29,744 nt of DNA, from positions 1 to 29,744 of the IMG/VR virus record IMGVR_UViG_3300017593_001506. One strand, given 5' to 3'. A model generated the notes under the pieces. The model saw nothing but the letters and a program-made list of their open reading frames with translations, was not told the origin of the DNA and did no database searches. The first letter of the stretch is position 1; each line of letters begins with the position of its first letter. The position numbers were made by a program, and so were the translations under genes. Positions 7,791-29,365 of the stretch are shown here, in pieces. This DNA comes from a virus.

Positions 7791-7796
7791 CTTATG

Positions 7797-7954
7797 CCCC
7801 GCTCTGTGGCGGAAAAGGTAGACGCTTCAGTTTGGGATAGCTGTGAAGGGGGAGACACCACAGGATACTCTGCTTCCCGTTCGATTCGGGAAATTGACGT
7901 CTCTGGGGAACAATTCGAGTATCTATGTAAGTGCAAATCTTTGCCGGAGCGGGG
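7797..7954 (+). ncRNA. tRNA-like structured RNA, copy A (158 nt)
   Basis: The ends pair over 10 bp: CCCCGCTCTG (7797-7806) with CGGAGCGGGG (7945-7954). The next bases TG and the arm GCGGAAAAGGTAGACGC (7809-7825) match positions 8-25 of bacterial tRNA-Leu, with a 3-bp D-stem. The 3' part has TGCAAAT in the place of a T-loop. The interior is unlike a tRNA: CTTCA/TGAAG arm, GATACTC (7864-7870) pairing with GAGTATC (7917-7923), and a hairpin of 6 bp with loop TTCGATT (7877-7895 region). Copy B is at 17535-17633 and keeps both ends. No normal anticodon arm can be folded and no CCA is encoded, so it is not called a tRNA. It sits between two + strand genes. Confidence 0.6.
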
Positions 7955-7970: not shown

Positions 7971-8399
7971 ATGATTCAGGATAAGAAGTTGACTATTATA
8001 TTGATAATTAACTGTTTACTTATCGGGAGTATACTCTTTTTCGGTTTAAGGTTAGCTGATAAAGTAAGAGCCGAGCCGAGTACTACAATTCAAGTAATTG
8101 AGGTAGAAGTAACTGCGTATTCACCCTCTCCTCACATTACTGATAAGACTCCATTCGAGATGGCATCAGGTAAAACAGCAAAACCAAAAGATTTAGAGCA
8201 GTTAAAGTATATTGCTGTCAGTAGAGATTTAAAACAACAATATAATTTGAGATGGGGAGAGAAAGTTTATATCGAATTTGAAATACAAGACTTAATGGGG
8301 ACAAAGGTTGAAAAGAGTGTCGATTTATTCATGCGCAACTTAGATTTAGCGAGAAAATTCGGTAGGCAAAGGAGAAGAATTATAATTGTAAAGGAGTAA
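7971..8399 (+). CDS. membrane-anchored 3D-domain protein (RlpA-like double-psi barrel)
   Basis: ATG 7971 is chosen over the more upstream ATG at 7794 because the latter would translate through the structured RNA at 7797-7954; AAGGGAAGAG precedes 7971. The 142-aa product has a single membrane helix at 7-27 and an outside-facing C-terminal domain. VEVTAYSPSP (46-54), TPFEMASGKTAKP, IAVSRDLKQQYNLRWGEKVYIE and VDLFMRNLDLARKFGRQRRR follow the order of a '3D' domain, found in peptidoglycan-acting proteins such as YuiC and MltA. D118 corresponds to the last of the three named Asp residues; the other two are not obvious, so activity is uncertain. It may help remodel the cell wall. Confidence 0.65.
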   Translation: MIQDKKLTIILIINCLLIGSILFFGLRLADKVRAEPSTTIQVIEVEVTAYSPSPHITDKTPFEMASGKTAKPKDLEQLKYIAVSRDLKQQYNLRWGEKVYIEFEIQDLMGTKVEKSVDLFMRNLDLARKFGRQRRRIIIVKE

Positions 8400-13354: not shown

Positions 13355-14277
13355 TGGTAAAGAAGCAAGTTACGTATTATCAAACTGATGTAAAGAAGGT
13401 AATCGAGGAAGGAAAGAGGGCAACAAGAGGAGGAGGCTTAAGCGGCTTCTTCAATCCAAAAGTTGGGCCGAATGAGATTAGAATTTTACCGCCTTGGAGC
13501 GATAGCGGATTGCCTTTCAAAGAAGTCGTAGTACACTTTGGGATTGGCCCAGAAAGCCAGACAGTCGCTTGTTTGCGTCCGTTTAGGAAAAGATGTTATA
13601 TATGTGAGCAGGTTTCGAAGTTATGGTCTTCAGGTCTAGAACAGGATCAGGATACAGCACGCAGGATCGGAAGAGCGAATAGATATCTGTGGAATATAAT
13701 CGATTTACAAGAACCGGAGAAGGGGGTGCAGATTTTAAGTTGCGGCGTGAAATTATTTGAGCAAATCTGGGCGTACTTCGCAGACGAGGAGTGGGGAGAC
13801 CTAACTAATCCAGATAGCGGATACGATCTGACAATTGTTAGGGAGGGATTGGGATTGAAAACGAGATATACTAGCGTGAGGTTACGTAGGAATCCAACTA
13901 AGTTACAGAATATGGAGTGGTTAGAGTCACTAAACGATTTGGATAAGGCGTTGAACGTCTTGAGCTACGATGCTCAAAAAGAGTTGTACGAAGGATATGC
14001 CGAAGATGAGGAAGTTGGTATAGAAGAAGAAAATGTGATAGAAAGAGTGGAAGTAGCCCCGAAAGTGTCTCCGCCTAAAGTTGAGGAGCCTGGGATAGGT
14101 AGGGTTTTAGAGAAAACCACGTTAGAGAAGAAGTGCTTCGGGAATTTTGATCCACGGTTGTTTGCAGAAAGGGAATGTGTTAAGTGTCCCAAATTACAGG
14201 ACTGTATGAAAGCTGCCCAAGACAATGAAAGCGATGCCCGTGAGATAGAAAGAGAACTGAAGGAGGGGTTAAAGTGA
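13354..14277 (+). CDS. gp32-like single-stranded-DNA-binding protein
   Basis: A 307-aa protein that would coat ssDNA during replication and recombination. The basic N-terminus (1-25), OB-like core (RILPPWSDSGLPFKEVVVHF), and a zinc site H61-x11-C73-x7-C81-x2-C84 closely match the H64/C77/C87/C90 site of T4 gp32. NRYLWNIIDLQEPEKGVQIL and the following segment match phage SSB cores. The tail is acidic (about 220-245), as expected for partner binding, and then carries a second Cys cluster (CFGNFDPRLFAERECVKCPK, then LQDC) absent from T4 gp32. It shares GTGATAA with the next gene. Confidence 0.85.
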   Translation: MVKKQVTYYQTDVKKVIEEGKRATRGGGLSGFFNPKVGPNEIRILPPWSDSGLPFKEVVVHFGIGPESQTVACLRPFRKRCYICEQVSKLWSSGLEQDQDTARRIGRANRYLWNIIDLQEPEKGVQILSCGVKLFEQIWAYFADEEWGDLTNPDSGYDLTIVREGLGLKTRYTSVRLRRNPTKLQNMEWLESLNDLDKALNVLSYDAQKELYEGYAEDEEVGIEEENVIERVEVAPKVSPPKVEEPGIGRVLEKTTLEKKCFGNFDPRLFAERECVKCPKLQDCMKAAQDNESDAREIERELKEGLK

Positions 14278-15065
14278 TAAAAGTTTGTCACCTGGCTTCT
14301 ACGCCCCATTTGAAATTAGCTTCTACCTATTCAAGCTTCTATCTGATGCTAGCTCATGTTAAAGACGAGGGATATTGGAACTTTTTCAAACAGTTAAAGA
14401 AAGAGAGCCCGAAGTTTAAGTTAGTTCTTGACTGCGGAACTTTAGAGAACGGGGTACCTGTAACTAACAAAAGACTATTTGATAAAGCAGTTGAAGTTGG
14501 AGCCGACGCAATTGTAGCACCAGACCACTTTAGAGATTGTAAAAGAACGATAGAATCGACAGAGAAGTTTATAGACTTTCTAAAAGAACGGAACAGACTA
14601 GAAAAAACAGGATTTGAAATTTGGGCAGCAGCGCAGGGAAGGAGTGTGGAGGAGTACTTCACCTCCTTCCTCCGTTTTTATAATAATCCAGACATAGATA
14701 AGGTCTGTCTGAGTTACATAATTGTTAAAGAGGTATTCGACCCAATTGTACATGGACACAGAGTGATGCCTAATCGATTGTATCTTACTAAGTTATTAAA
14801 TGAGTTACAACTAACTAAAAAGCCGATTCATCTATTCGGTCTAGGTAATCCAATTGAGTTAAAGTATCAGAGGATATACCCTTTTATTAAATCATGTGAC
14901 TCCTCAGCAGCGTTCGCATTAGCATCGAGACAATTGTCGTTAGAGAGTAAGGGATATGATAGAGATATAAAGGTGATAGATTTGAATAGAAGATTAAGTG
15001 GACCGGAGGCAGATACATTTGAACATAATATGAGGCAAATAAATAAATGGAGGTGGCCAAGATAA
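14274..15065 (+). CDS. DpdA/Tgt-like 7-deazaguanine transglycosylase
   Basis: A 263-aa TIM-barrel protein of the tRNA-guanine transglycosylase family. The phage members (DpdA) exchange guanine in DNA for preQ0-type bases. Family positions are visible: LDCGTLENG (D53) for the first catalytic Asp, VAPDHFRDCKRTIE (D84) for the base-binding Asp, WAAAQGRSVEEY (Q121-G122), IHLFGLGNP (G189-G191), and KSCDSSAAFALASR (D209) for the nucleophile. The C-terminal zinc site of bacterial Tgt (CxCxxC...H) is absent, as in many short phage forms. The GTG start overlaps the SSB stop, after AAGGAGG. FolE, QueD, QueE and QueC follow, which strongly supports a DNA-modifying role over tRNA. Confidence 0.8.
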   Translation: MIKVCHLASTPHLKLASTYSSFYLMLAHVKDEGYWNFFKQLKKESPKFKLVLDCGTLENGVPVTNKRLFDKAVEVGADAIVAPDHFRDCKRTIESTEKFIDFLKERNRLEKTGFEIWAAAQGRSVEEYFTSFLRFYNNPDIDKVCLSYIIVKEVFDPIVHGHRVMPNRLYLTKLLNELQLTKKPIHLFGLGNPIELKYQRIYPFIKSCDSSAAFALASRQLSLESKGYDRDIKVIDLNRRLSGPEADTFEHNMRQINKWRWPR

Positions 15066-17534: not shown

Positions 17535-17633
17535 CTCCCGCTCTGTGGTGGAATAGGTAAACACAAGGACTGGTAACTGCTCTGAAACGCCAGTAATGGG
17601 CTTGCAGAGTGCGAATCTTTGCCGGAGTGGGAG
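17535..17633 (+). ncRNA. tRNA-like structured RNA, copy B (99 nt)
   Basis: The ends pair over 11 bp: CTCCCGCTCTG (17535-17545) with CGGAGTGGGAG (17623-17633), extendable by two A-T pairs. The D-arm-like GTGGAATAGGTAAACAC (17548-17564) follows TG as in tRNA-Leu. A T-arm-like GCAGAG-TGCGAAT-CTTTGC (17604-17622) abuts the 3' strand. The middle arm is AAG/CTT with ACTGG (17569-17573) pairing CCAGT (17590-17594) around a 16-nt loop, so no 7-nt anticodon loop forms. The long acceptor stem and absence of CCA separate it from a normal tRNA. It shares both ends with copy A and lies between the transporter and queC. Confidence 0.65.
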
Positions 17634-17655: not shown

Positions 17656-17698
17656 TATGGTTGCCGTTCGTTCATAAAGGATAGGCGGCAACCGCATA
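17656..17698 (+). other. hairpin in the queC leader
   Basis: GGTTGCCG (17659-17666) pairs perfectly with CGGCAACC (17686-17693) around a 19-nt loop, and TATG/CATA extends it after a small bulge. It ends 13 nt before the queC ATG, ahead of AAAGGAGGAG. There is no T tract, so it looks like a leader structure rather than a terminator. Confidence 0.55.
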
Positions 17699-26763: not shown

Positions 26764-26916
26764 TTATTCGTCTGGATGAGCACCTAAATGAAAATCAAAT
26801 AGATTTTTCAGCATTTCTAACGCATCTTCCTTATTATCGAATTCTTGCTCAATACTAGGCGCAGCTTCCAGCCTGATATAAATTTTTCCCTCTGATATAT
26901 TTATTATTAATCTCAT
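26764..26916 (-). CDS. hypothetical protein, 50 aa
   Basis: ATG 26916 overlaps the stop of the radical SAM gene (ATGA), with GGAG 7 nt upstream. The product MRLIINISEGKIYIRLEAAP then SIEQEFDNKEDALEMLKNLF has two strands and a helix, the size of a small peptide-binding or RRE-like element, but too short for certainty. It lies between the radical SAM and DUF483-like genes. Confidence 0.55.
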   Translation of the reverse strand: MRLIINISEGKIYIRLEAAPSIEQEFDNKEDALEMLKNLFDFHLGAHPDE

Positions 26917-28244
26917 CCCGAATCTCCATGTCTTTGATAATTGCCGTGTGGTATATCGGCATGTTTACCCTCATAACCTTTTGGAGGTTTATCATTCCAA
27001 TCTTCCCAATCTCGCTCTGGATTATTCGAATCACTGTGTCTAGCATAATCTCCGTGTGAATCGGAATGGTCTTCTCCTCCCCTTTCCCTCCTCTTTTTTC
27101 TTGTATAATTAGAAGAGGTTCTCCAAGTGGAACCCTCCATTCTTTCAACCTTATTGCAAAACTTGTAATTAGACACAGAATCTTCCGGTCCTTCAACTTT
27201 ATAATCAGTTATTAACTTTATCCTAGGGAATAGACCTCTGCTCCGTTTTTCAATCTTTTCGTACAAGGAATAATAGACTTCGCAAAATACCGATTTATTC
27301 CTCCAATCTCCGTCAATTGCCTCCGAGGGACATAATCCAGAACATATTGGCCAGTATTTACAGCCTTTACATCCTCCAAACTCCTTTGGTGTATTGAATA
27401 ACGCTTCGTACCTGATCTTTATAGGTGCTTCACCTTGCAGAACATTGCCACTTACCACTGTTTTCATACAATTTCTAATACTCCCGTCACCCAAAATAAC
27501 ATGCGCTGAGTTAGTCCAAAAAGGGTCGCACTGATGGTAAATACAAGTTGATTGCCTAAATCCCATCAAATTATCTATTATATCTCTAAAAGGTTGCCAT
27601 TGTAATTTATCGTCGGCAAGAATAAAATCGCACATATCTGAATAGAAATCCTTGAATTCATTAACGGTCGGAACATAATCCCCTTTTCCTAATACTGGAT
27701 TCATTCGTCCACTTGGACAGCCAATTCCCTTCATTTCCATAATAAAATCCTTAAACTTCTTTCGCTGTTTTGGAAGGCAGTTATATTTTGTTATTACCGA
27801 AATTAGTCCCACTGAAATCTTTTCGTATCGTAGTTTGTAGATATTTTTGATAACTTTTATTGTCCGCTCCTTATTTTTTTCTCTCCATCTCCCCATGTTT
27901 AGTTCATCGGGTCCATCAATAGAAATTCCAATAGCTGTTTTATATTTCTTAAACATTGCTATAATTTCATCATCGATTAGCAATCCGTTTGTCTGCATCG
28001 ATGTTTTCCCAGCAAGTTCGAACCCTTTTTTTAATAACTTTTCAAGGTCATGTTTAGGAATTAATAGAGGCTCACCTCCATGCAGACAAATATCAGTCTT
28101 AAATCGCTTGTGAGCGGTTTCCATAGCTGATAATACTCTACTTAAATCGTAGTCTAAAAGCATTTTCTTTTTTCTTAAATTATTCTCATAGCAATAAATA
28201 CAATTGCTATTACATCTCATTGTTGGCTTAACTAATATGCTCAT
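26913..28244 (-). CDS. radical SAM/SPASM peptide maturase with Asp/His-rich tail
   Basis: A 443-aa enzyme of the peptide-modifying radical SAM family. The catalytic cluster is C11, C15, C18 in MRCNSNCIYCYE, with HGGEPLL (55-61) and GISIDGP (106-112). The SPASM region has C234, C239, C259 and CKGCKYWPICSGLCPSEA (C292, C295, C301, C305), then C321, enough for two auxiliary Fe-S clusters as in anSME and PqqE-like enzymes. Residues 391-443 are not part of the enzyme fold: they repeat the style of the neighbouring protein (HSDSHGDYARHSDS, DWEDWNDKP). The ATG overlaps the stop of the repeat protein by one base (TAATG), so the two are translationally coupled. A part of the gene is duplicated in reverse at the window end. 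Confidence 0.9.
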   Translation of the reverse strand: MSILVKPTMRCNSNCIYCYENNLRKKKMLLDYDLSRVLSAMETAHKRFKTDICLHGGEPLLIPKHDLEKLLKKGFELAGKTSMQTNGLLIDDEIIAMFKKYKTAIGISIDGPDELNMGRWREKNKERTIKVIKNIYKLRYEKISVGLISVITKYNCLPKQRKKFKDFIMEMKGIGCPSGRMNPVLGKGDYVPTVNEFKDFYSDMCDFILADDKLQWQPFRDIIDNLMGFRQSTCIYHQCDPFWTNSAHVILGDGSIRNCMKTVVSGNVLQGEAPIKIRYEALFNTPKEFGGCKGCKYWPICSGLCPSEAIDGDWRNKSVFCEVYYSLYEKIEKRSRGLFPRIKLITDYKVEGPEDSVSNYKFCNKVERMEGSTWRTSSNYTRKKRRERGGEDHSDSHGDYARHSDSNNPERDWEDWNDKPPKGYEGKHADIPHGNYQRHGDSG

Positions 28245-29365
28245 TAAACTTCTCCTTCATAAGCTGGTTTATCTGTATGACCTGCTCCCGAATCATTATG
28301 ATTATCCCAGTCTTGGTATGCGACATCGGAATAATCTGCGTGATCGGAGTGCGGTCTGTCGGAATACTTTGTATAGTCTTCATATCCTGTTCCTGTATCT
28401 TCGTGCGAATAATCCAAATGTTCAACGTCGGAATGATCGCTATGGTCATCGTGAGGTACGTCGGAATGGTCACCATGGTCTCGATGCGCTGTATCATTGT
28501 GATCGCTGTGGTCTTCGTGAGCATCATCTATATGGTCATTCCATTCATCTCCCGAATTACTGTGATCGTTATGGTCTTCGTGAGCATCATCTATGTGCGG
28601 CATATCTGACCAAGTAGTATTATCATGATCGCTATGATTATCGTGGTTATCCCACTGAAAATGGTCGTGATATGGGCCGGAATAAGAGTCTTCATGGTCA
28701 TCATAATCATCATGATCGTCGTGATCTTCATAAATTTCATCGGACCAATCACTATAAGCTTCGTCATTGTGCTGATCCCAATCGCTATGTGTGTCAGTAT
28801 GATCGCCCCAATCATCATAAGGAACATTATCATGGTCATCCCAATTTGTATGGGAATCGTTGTGGTCATCCCAATCTGAATGTGCTGTATCGTCATGGTC
28901 ATCCCAATTTGAATGTGCTATATCATGATGATCCTGATGATCTGCATGCACATCATTATATTCGTCCCAATCACTATAATCAGTATGAGGTGCTGTATCA
29001 TAATGATATGTTCCATCTTGATGAGCAGAATCATTATGCGGTGAAGAATCCTGGTGAAATGAATCGTCATGATTCTCGTGTGCGATATATCTTTCTTCTC
29101 CCGCTTGGTCAATGATTCTGGGATAATTCTCAATCCAGATGCTGCCTTGTAATGCTCCAGTTGGAAAATTACTAGTTGAAGTCATAGTAATAATCCGCTT
29201 ATGACCATCATCATCAATATACGCAATCAAAGAACCTTCAATCCAAAGCGAGCCTTTTAACCCTGCAACTAATCCTTCGTCTGTTCCTTCAATCGAATAT
29301 TCACTGCTTCCTTTTATCCAATGTAATTTAGTCCCCTCAACCCAAATACTTCCTGATTTTGCCAT
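28244..29365 (-). CDS. Asp/His/Trp repeat fibre-like protein, likely radical SAM substrate
   Basis: A 373-aa protein, very acidic and without cysteine. Residues 1-94 hold three beta units starting GSIWVEG, GSLWIEG and GSIWIEN, of a type seen in phage tail-fibre modules. Residues 95-365 are about 24 imperfect 11-residue repeats of the form [ST]-x-x-H-x-D-[WHY]-x-D-H-x-D; for example TAHSDWDDHND (160-170), DVPHDDHSDHS and TAHRDHGDHSD. The C-terminus ends HTDKPAYEGEV. It lies after a tail-type gene and immediately before the radical SAM/SPASM gene (one-base overlap), an arrangement typical of precursor and maturase. The many Asp/His could bind metal in a trimeric shaft. Function is inferred. Confidence 0.75.
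   Translation of the reverse strand: MAKSGSIWVEGTKLHWIKGSSEYSIEGTDEGLVAGLKGSLWIEGSLIAYIDDDGHKRIITMTSTSNFPTGALQGSIWIENYPRIIDQAGEERYIAHENHDDSFHQDSSPHNDSAHQDGTYHYDTAPHTDYSDWDEYNDVHADHQDHHDIAHSNWDDHDDTAHSDWDDHNDSHTNWDDHDNVPYDDWGDHTDTHSDWDQHNDEAYSDWSDEIYEDHDDHDDYDDHEDSYSGPYHDHFQWDNHDNHSDHDNTTWSDMPHIDDAHEDHNDHSNSGDEWNDHIDDAHEDHSDHNDTAHRDHGDHSDVPHDDHSDHSDVEHLDYSHEDTGTGYEDYTKYSDRPHSDHADYSDVAYQDWDNHNDSGAGHTDKPAYEGEV
28271..29083 (-). repeat. degenerate 33-bp tandem repeats encoding the Asp/His array
   Basis: The coding DNA of residues 95-365 repeats with a 33-nt period (11 codons), most clearly between 28790 and 28920, where GTCATCCCAATNTGAATG-type units recur on the + strand. Units are diverged in third positions, so the array has been kept by protein-level selection rather than recent slippage. 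Such repeats are also hard to assemble, and their copy number here may not be exact. Confidence 0.75.

Follow-up and report, generated by a model that had tools for sequence, protein, structure and literature searches.

A tRNA-like RNA family with a hypervariable, pseudoknotted middle domain in viruses of Bacillota, traced from an element upstream of queC

What kind of RNA, if any, is encoded by the tRNA-shaped element found directly before queC in the virus contig IMGVR_UViG_3300017593_001506, and what could it do for the phage? The window, i.e., the whole stretch of DNA analysed here, is this single contig of 29.7 kb (29,744 nucleotides). An earlier note had described two such elements within it, copy A and copy B. 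For copy B (17535-17633), the coordinates, the 11-bp end stem, the D-arm and the 6-bp T-stem with a TGCGAAT loop were all confirmed in the sequence. The parts of copy B are as follows:

17535..17545, + strand: 5' strand of the acceptor-like stem, CTCCCGCTCTG, forming 11 bp with 17623-17633 (from the sequence; a paired acceptor is a family feature)
17546..17564, + strand: U8-G9 and the D-arm GTG-GAATAGGTAAA-CAC, with A14, A15, G18 and G19 (from the sequence; D-arm of tRNA-Leu type)
17569..17574, + strand: 5' strand of the putative pseudoknot helix, ACTGGT, pairing with 17589-17594 (a topology enriched in the family versus shuffles)
17579..17582, + strand: 5' strand of the predicted long-arm helix P4, GCTC, pairing with 17598-17601 (GGGC); a weak helix of 4 bp, one of them G-U
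17589..17594, + strand: 3' strand of the putative pseudoknot helix, GCCAGT (pseudoknot descriptor)
17598..17603, + strand: 3' strand of P4, GGGC, then T and the invariant T48 at 17603 (family and pseudoknot descriptors)
17604..17622, + strand: T-arm with the 6-bp stem GCAGAG/CTTTGC and the loop TGCGAAT, i.e., G55 (sequence and family comparison)
17623..17633, + strand: 3' strand of the acceptor-like stem, CGGAGTGGGAG, then AAAATA, with no CCA (from the sequence)

The end stem reaches 13 bp when 17533-17534/17634-17635 are counted, and the fold energy of the copy is modest (z -2.4). The compact middle arm with a 16-nt loop (ACTGG/CCAGT), described in the earlier note, is present in the sequence, but an H-type pseudoknot is the better reading, with this arm as one helix and GCTC/GGGC as the second. 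Such a pseudoknot fits the topology of the family, and copy B itself probably forms it, although its second helix is weak. Between copy B and the queC ribosome-binding site there is also a perfect 8-bp hairpin, GGTTGCCG...CGGCAACC (17659-17692), without a T-run.

Copy A (7797-7954) is flanked by a gene of an HTH-type regulator and a gene of a short membrane-anchored protein, which probably starts at 7971 and not at 7794. It consists of the following parts:

7797..7806, + strand: 5' strand of the acceptor-like stem, CCCCGCTCTG, forming 10 bp with 7945-7954
7807..7825, + strand: U8-G9 and the D-arm GCG-GAAAAGGTAGA-CGC (sequence and family model)
7828..7843, + strand: predicted hairpin CAGTT/AGCTG at the place of the anticodon arm (RNAfold of the middle region)
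7864..7923, + strand: long arm closed by GATACTC/GAGTATC, 7 bp, stopping 2 nt short of T48 (7926), i.e., at the position of the family P4
7874..7892, + strand: second, canonical T-arm, TTCCCG TTCGATT CGGGAA (from the sequence)
7927..7944, + strand: T-arm GTAAG TGCAAAT CTTTGC, 5 bp with one bulged T
7945..7954, + strand: 3' strand of the acceptor-like stem, CGGAGCGGGG (from the sequence)

The arms that the two copies were said to share are all present in copy B, whereas the T-stem of copy A (GTAAG/CTT(T)GC, 5 bp and a bulge) is weaker than had been implied. The changes reported between the copies were borne out: one acceptor pair and one D-stem pair differ on both sides, C-G having become U-A, and one further acceptor pair changes from G-C to G-U. 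The family covariance model scores copy B at 57.2 bits (E 2.7e-13), a value that is not independent because copy B is among the 57 training rows, and copy A, which was outside the training set, at 40.1 bits (E 9.1e-9).

Constant features of the family

A tRNA finder and a wider motif search, both of which had been proposed in the earlier note, were run. ARAGORN reported 0 tRNA genes and no tmRNA in the window. Nothing in Rfam, RF00005 included, matched copy A or copy B at the gathering threshold or at E up to 10, and other members of the family were unmatched as well; the matches seen at loose thresholds were chance, snoRNA-like ones only. The element is thus no ordinary tRNA: tRNA models recognised neither copy, and no CCA is encoded there.

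The motif search revealed a large RNA family. The scan of IMG/VR for the D-arm GTGGYGGAAWAGGTARACRC gave at least 119 DNA stretches, a set biased by these letters towards tRNA-Leu-like D-arms, and among the matches listed many occurrences were not ARAGORN tRNAs and had the layout of copies A and B. The exact 3' end, GTGCRAATCTTTGCCGG, gave 7 matches in viral contigs; all of them fell by chance in coding-like sequence and lacked a D-arm. A family descriptor composed of the D-arm, the T-arm and the end stem, applied to IMG/VR contigs and GTDB genomes, collected at least 133 distinct members, the loci being parts of contigs. In this set, chosen partly by pairing and with the T-loop TGCRAAT (G55) fixed by the descriptor, the 6-bp T-stem and the T48 just before it are each present in 133/133 members.

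Since the descriptor set was selected for pairing, a second set was picked by the letters of the D-loop and T-loop alone (77 loci of GTDB genomes, gap 45-75, 76 of them scorable). T48 was found in 76/76, a T-stem of exactly 6 bp in 72/76 and all seven acceptor pairs in 60/76, while acceptor strands with swapped partners were fully paired in only 232/5,700 combinations (4%). Moreover, in an alignment of 57 members, 236 compensatory cells were observed versus 54 in shuffled and 25-44 in slid alignments, and the covariation reached 0.708 versus 0.180 and at most 0.124, respectively, which supports the claim of a selected tRNA-like structure. The D-stem variants GCT/AGC and ATG/CAT, found in a relaxed search, are compensated too, and uncompensated variants were absent there.

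The constant parts comprise a paired acceptor (usually 7-9 bp), a D-arm of tRNA-Leu type, the invariant U48 with A15, the 6-bp T-stem and the loop UGCRAAU; the elbow positions U8, A14, A15-U48, G18-G19, C56 and A58 are invariant or nearly so among the 57 aligned members. About half of the members have an acceptor that can be extended beyond 7 bp, and acceptors of up to 10-23 bp occur. In the middle regions of the members (8-192 nt), no constant arm of the anticodon kind (5 bp with a 7-nt loop) was found. The literature covered, which took in few subscription journals, held no description of such an RNA, nor were the letters of its D-arm and T-arm found in any relevant paper; the large phage RNA family is thus apparently undescribed.

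The middle domain and the distribution of members

The letters of the middle domain are close to random; only a CAT before the T-stem stands out, and the rest is weak. Its structure was assessed with a pseudoknot descriptor, in which a helix ending just before T48 (P4) is combined with a pairing of the start of the domain into the loop of that helix. This combination is present in 50% of members versus 14% of dinucleotide shuffles. In a Paenibacillus/Bacillus subgroup of nine sequences, two kissing pairs are each represented by four to five pair types, double changes occur at 6/9 pairs of P4, and the whole structure shows 47 double-change cells versus 14 in shuffled data. Hence, the middle is hypervariable in sequence yet forms a pseudoknot or kissing loop that is supported by covariation.

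A canonical second T-arm (GTTCRANTC loop) lies in the middle domain not only in the window (7874-7892) but also at the loci L024, L106, L182, L185 and L218, so that such members are single RNAs with two T-loops. In a further subfamily, an arm with the invariant ends TGACTATACGAG...CTCGTCAAAT is inserted within the T-loop and encloses a second hypervariable stretch (loci L026, L062, L116 and L248-L289; e.g., L116 898-974). Of its 45 viral-contig stretches, 43 have a 6-bp T-stem, 41 have T48, and at least 22 combine the same D-arm with a paired acceptor.

The family is common in viruses of Bacillota (Lactobacillus, Paenibacillus, Bacillus, Listeria and Clostridia). In the letters-only set, 70/77 loci (about 90%) belong to this phylum according to their record titles, the other seven being MAG contigs. 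Genomes with a match at E<=1e-7 amounted to 25/201 in Lactobacillaceae and 9/398 in the phylum of Paenibacillus, in counts from which the filters lose matches and in which the weakest matches may be tRNA-Leu. Members were identified in the Lactobacillus phages phiJL-1, 8014-B2, LP65, P1, Sha1 and Iacchus, with no annotated feature under the match, and in LP65, 8014-B2 and Iacchus they lie inside tRNA clusters. Some records hold several members with different middles in one phage according to model R1, whose matches below about 46 bits include true tRNA-Leu. In an Oscillospiraceae MAG (L218 7293-7781), three members follow a tRNA-Met-like gene at spacings of 1-8 nt (6-8 nt between members). At another locus (L044 189-254), a cow-rumen-4 RNA (RF02948) was found, in a phage with 26 tRNA genes and two family members.

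The commonest neighbours are the genes of a late transcription activator together with HNH/terminase, and other members lie between genes of a single-strand-binding protein and a polymerase; one fixed neighbour gene was not found across the member loci. Relatives of the window polymerase were distant, and the sole matches of the model near them were weak (21-24 bits); inspection of one of these showed a true tRNA-Leu. Close relatives of the window QueC were not confirmed.

The window itself carries folE, queD, queE, a gene of a queuosine-precursor transporter and queC, so the context of queC is in keeping with a phage set of preQ0 synthesis genes. Beside these genes, a 263-aa protein (14274-15065) has by eye the look of a TGT-type enzyme, possibly a DpdA-like DNA transglycosylase; it has no Pfam match, no meaningful NCBIfam match and matches only two PHROGs of unknown function. 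Elsewhere in the window, a 373-aa protein with many short Asp/His-rich repeats of the DDHxD type (28244-29365, - strand; no PHROG match) adjoins a radical SAM protein (26913-28244).

Possible function and alternative explanations

The sequences flanking the acceptor bear on how the RNA may be made. After the seventh acceptor pair, A73 is present in 55% (p 2e-7), T74 in 53% (p 1e-9) and T75 in 41% (p 4e-4) of members, and amongst the 44 members with an acceptor of exactly 7 bp T74 occurs in 28; CCA is encoded in 1/120 members. Uracils downstream of the discriminator aid the RNase Z of B. subtilis. A discriminator A followed by U, with no CCA, looks like what a pre-tRNA trimmed by RNase Z would show, while the leader base at -1 does not clearly mark an RNase P substrate.

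Computation showed a conserved fold, a pseudoknot and a 3' flank like that of a tRNA, and on these the following mechanism may be built. Copy B would encode a small non-coding RNA, about 91-103 nt long, that folds as the acceptor end and elbow of tRNA-Leu (an acceptor stem, a D-arm docked to the T-arm, and A15-U48), the anticodon and variable arms being replaced by a pseudoknotted domain. The phage transcript would be cut in the manner of a pre-tRNA, by RNase P at the 5' end and RNase Z at the 3' end, and the excised RNA would act in trans as a tRNA mimic unable to decode. Its preferred role would be that of a decoy or competitive inhibitor of an elbow-binding enzyme, above all of tRNA-cutting nucleases of phage defence, since the fast-changing domain would sit where such nucleases cut, in the anticodon loop or variable loop. 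Action in trans, as excised RNAs, is favoured by the tandem arrays and by positions within tRNA clusters. The parts kept constant are the ones by which proteins recognise the elbow and acceptor of a tRNA, and the changing part lies where the anticodon and variable arms would be. With G55, the psi55 synthase TruB loses its target; a G is allowed at this position in T-loops of other RNAs. The fast change of the middle would also be expected if the domain were a spacer under relaxed constraint, or if only its shape were recognised. Our preference for a processed, trans-acting, non-decoding tRNA mimic that serves as a decoy or inhibitor is tentative; we judge its chance to be somewhat short of even, and any particular target is less likely than that. 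A broader reading is possible without being probable: the family may be a modular class of viral RNAs, in which a constant tRNA-Leu-like shell carries swappable, fast-evolving knotted modules at the place of the variable arm and, in the further subfamily, inside the T-loop, diversified and stacked as RNAs for anti-defence or host takeover. If so, phages would stack RNA modules much as they stack anti-defence proteins.

The elements might instead act in cis, as tRNA-like punctuation for RNase P/RNase Z cuts or as a knot stopping RNase J (a 5'-3' exonuclease), so that neighbours such as queC are expressed separately. Copies A and B do lie in same-strand intergenic gaps, each directly before a gene, many members occupy the gaps between the neighbour pairs named above (late activator and HNH/terminase, or single-strand-binding protein and polymerase), and the 3' flank resembles an RNase Z site. 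Punctuation, however, has no need of three consecutive members behind a tRNA, spaced by 6-8 nt, or of copies inside tRNA clusters, and it leaves a diversified pseudoknot of conserved structure unexplained, which makes a cis element unlikely. A chargeable mimic of tRNA-Leu, to which CCA is added and which LeuRS loads with leucine, either for a use outside translation or as a drain on leucine and LeuRS, is more doubtful. Bacterial LeuRS reads the tRNA body rather than the anticodon, A15-U48 is a feature of tRNA-Leu, which the family shares together with the D-arm type, and A is the commonest discriminator base; on the other hand, that A is found in only 55%, acceptors extend to 10-23 bp, CCA is not encoded, and the search pattern itself accounts for part of the likeness of the D-arm to tRNA-Leu, although only compensated D-stem variants turned up in relaxed searches.

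A structural or packaging RNA that multimerises through a loop-loop helix, in the manner of the phi29 pRNA, would account for kissing loops that differ widely in sequence while keeping their complementarity, and some members are near terminase genes (P1, Sha1) or at the genome end (phiJL-1). It is nevertheless quite improbable, as the copies of LP65 and 8014-B2 lie in tRNA clusters away from packaging genes, copies within one phage have different loops, and those of the window are placed among replication and preQ0 genes. The link to 7-deazaguanine suggested in the earlier note, i.e., a preQ0/preQ1 sensor controlling queC, drew on the location of copy B between the queuosine-precursor transporter gene and queC, and was not supported. 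None of queC, folE, queD and queE is encoded in the available DNA of 129 other member loci, so the neighbourhood of copy B and queC is most likely incidental. Copy A, as the earlier note had itself remarked, is not beside such a gene, no preQ riboswitch of Rfam matched, and the middle domain has no conserved letters of a binding pocket; a sensor is thus very improbable. Equally hard to credit is a functionless tRNA-Leu gene, whether decayed or oddly built: the D-arm resembles that of phage tRNA-Leu, but 133 members share features foreign to tRNA-Leu (the 6-bp T-stem, G55, the pseudoknot and the missing anticodon arm) with strong covariation, and decay would not keep covarying shared features.

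Comparison with known systems

The closest likeness is to tRNA-Leu (class II, RF00005), with which the family shares the layout of acceptor, D-arm and T-arm, U8, A14, A15-U48, G18-G19, C56, A58 and near-identical D-arm letters. It differs in the 6-bp (not 5) T-stem, in G (not U) at 55, in the pseudoknotted domain between D-arm and T-arm and in having neither an anticodon arm nor an encoded CCA, and it is recognised by neither ARAGORN nor RF00005. That both tRNA finders and Rfam miss it seems to be why the family has been overlooked, even in phages sequenced twenty years ago.

RNAs of the YrlA type are found in phages too and, like the family, are non-coding RNAs carrying a tRNA-like domain. 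The outer stem of the family is, in contrast, a variable acceptor stem, and no Rfam match was obtained. The Ro60/TROVE domain (PF05731) was looked for in the window and in 11 other phage records with members and found in none of them, and it was present somewhere in 1/8 host genomes tested. The bacterial Y RNA YrlA is presented as a tRNA-mimicking non-coding RNA with a tRNA-like domain (Chen et al. 2014, as covered in PMC7790460).

With tmRNA, the family has in common a tRNA-like acceptor and T-arm without an anticodon arm, plus a pseudoknot, but it is about 100 nt long, with no tag reading frame, no encoded CCA and a D-arm of tRNA-Leu type; the ARAGORN search for tmRNA was negative in the window, and the Rfam tmRNA models did not match at these elements. 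The phi29 pRNA is a phage RNA whose loop-loop pairing is conserved in complementarity rather than in sequence. It is not tRNA-like and occurs as one copy per phage beside packaging genes, whereas copies of the family can be several and diverse, without a constant tie to packaging: terminase is tens of kb from the members in LP65 and was not found in the window.

The anti-defence tRNAs of phages (tRNA-Tyr of T5/T6 against retron-Eco7 and Septu) resemble the family in being tRNA-shaped, in their tRNA clusters and in a changing variable-loop region. These are true tRNAs replacing the cut ones, while members of the family cannot decode, and therefore only decoy or inhibitor action would be open to them. 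Mimicry of tRNA is familiar from non-coding RNAs of viruses and bacteria, and the family bears directly on how phages counter tRNA-cutting defences. The covariance model lets annotators find its members, and cultivable phages are available for asking what an anticodon-less, tRNA-shaped RNA does during infection.
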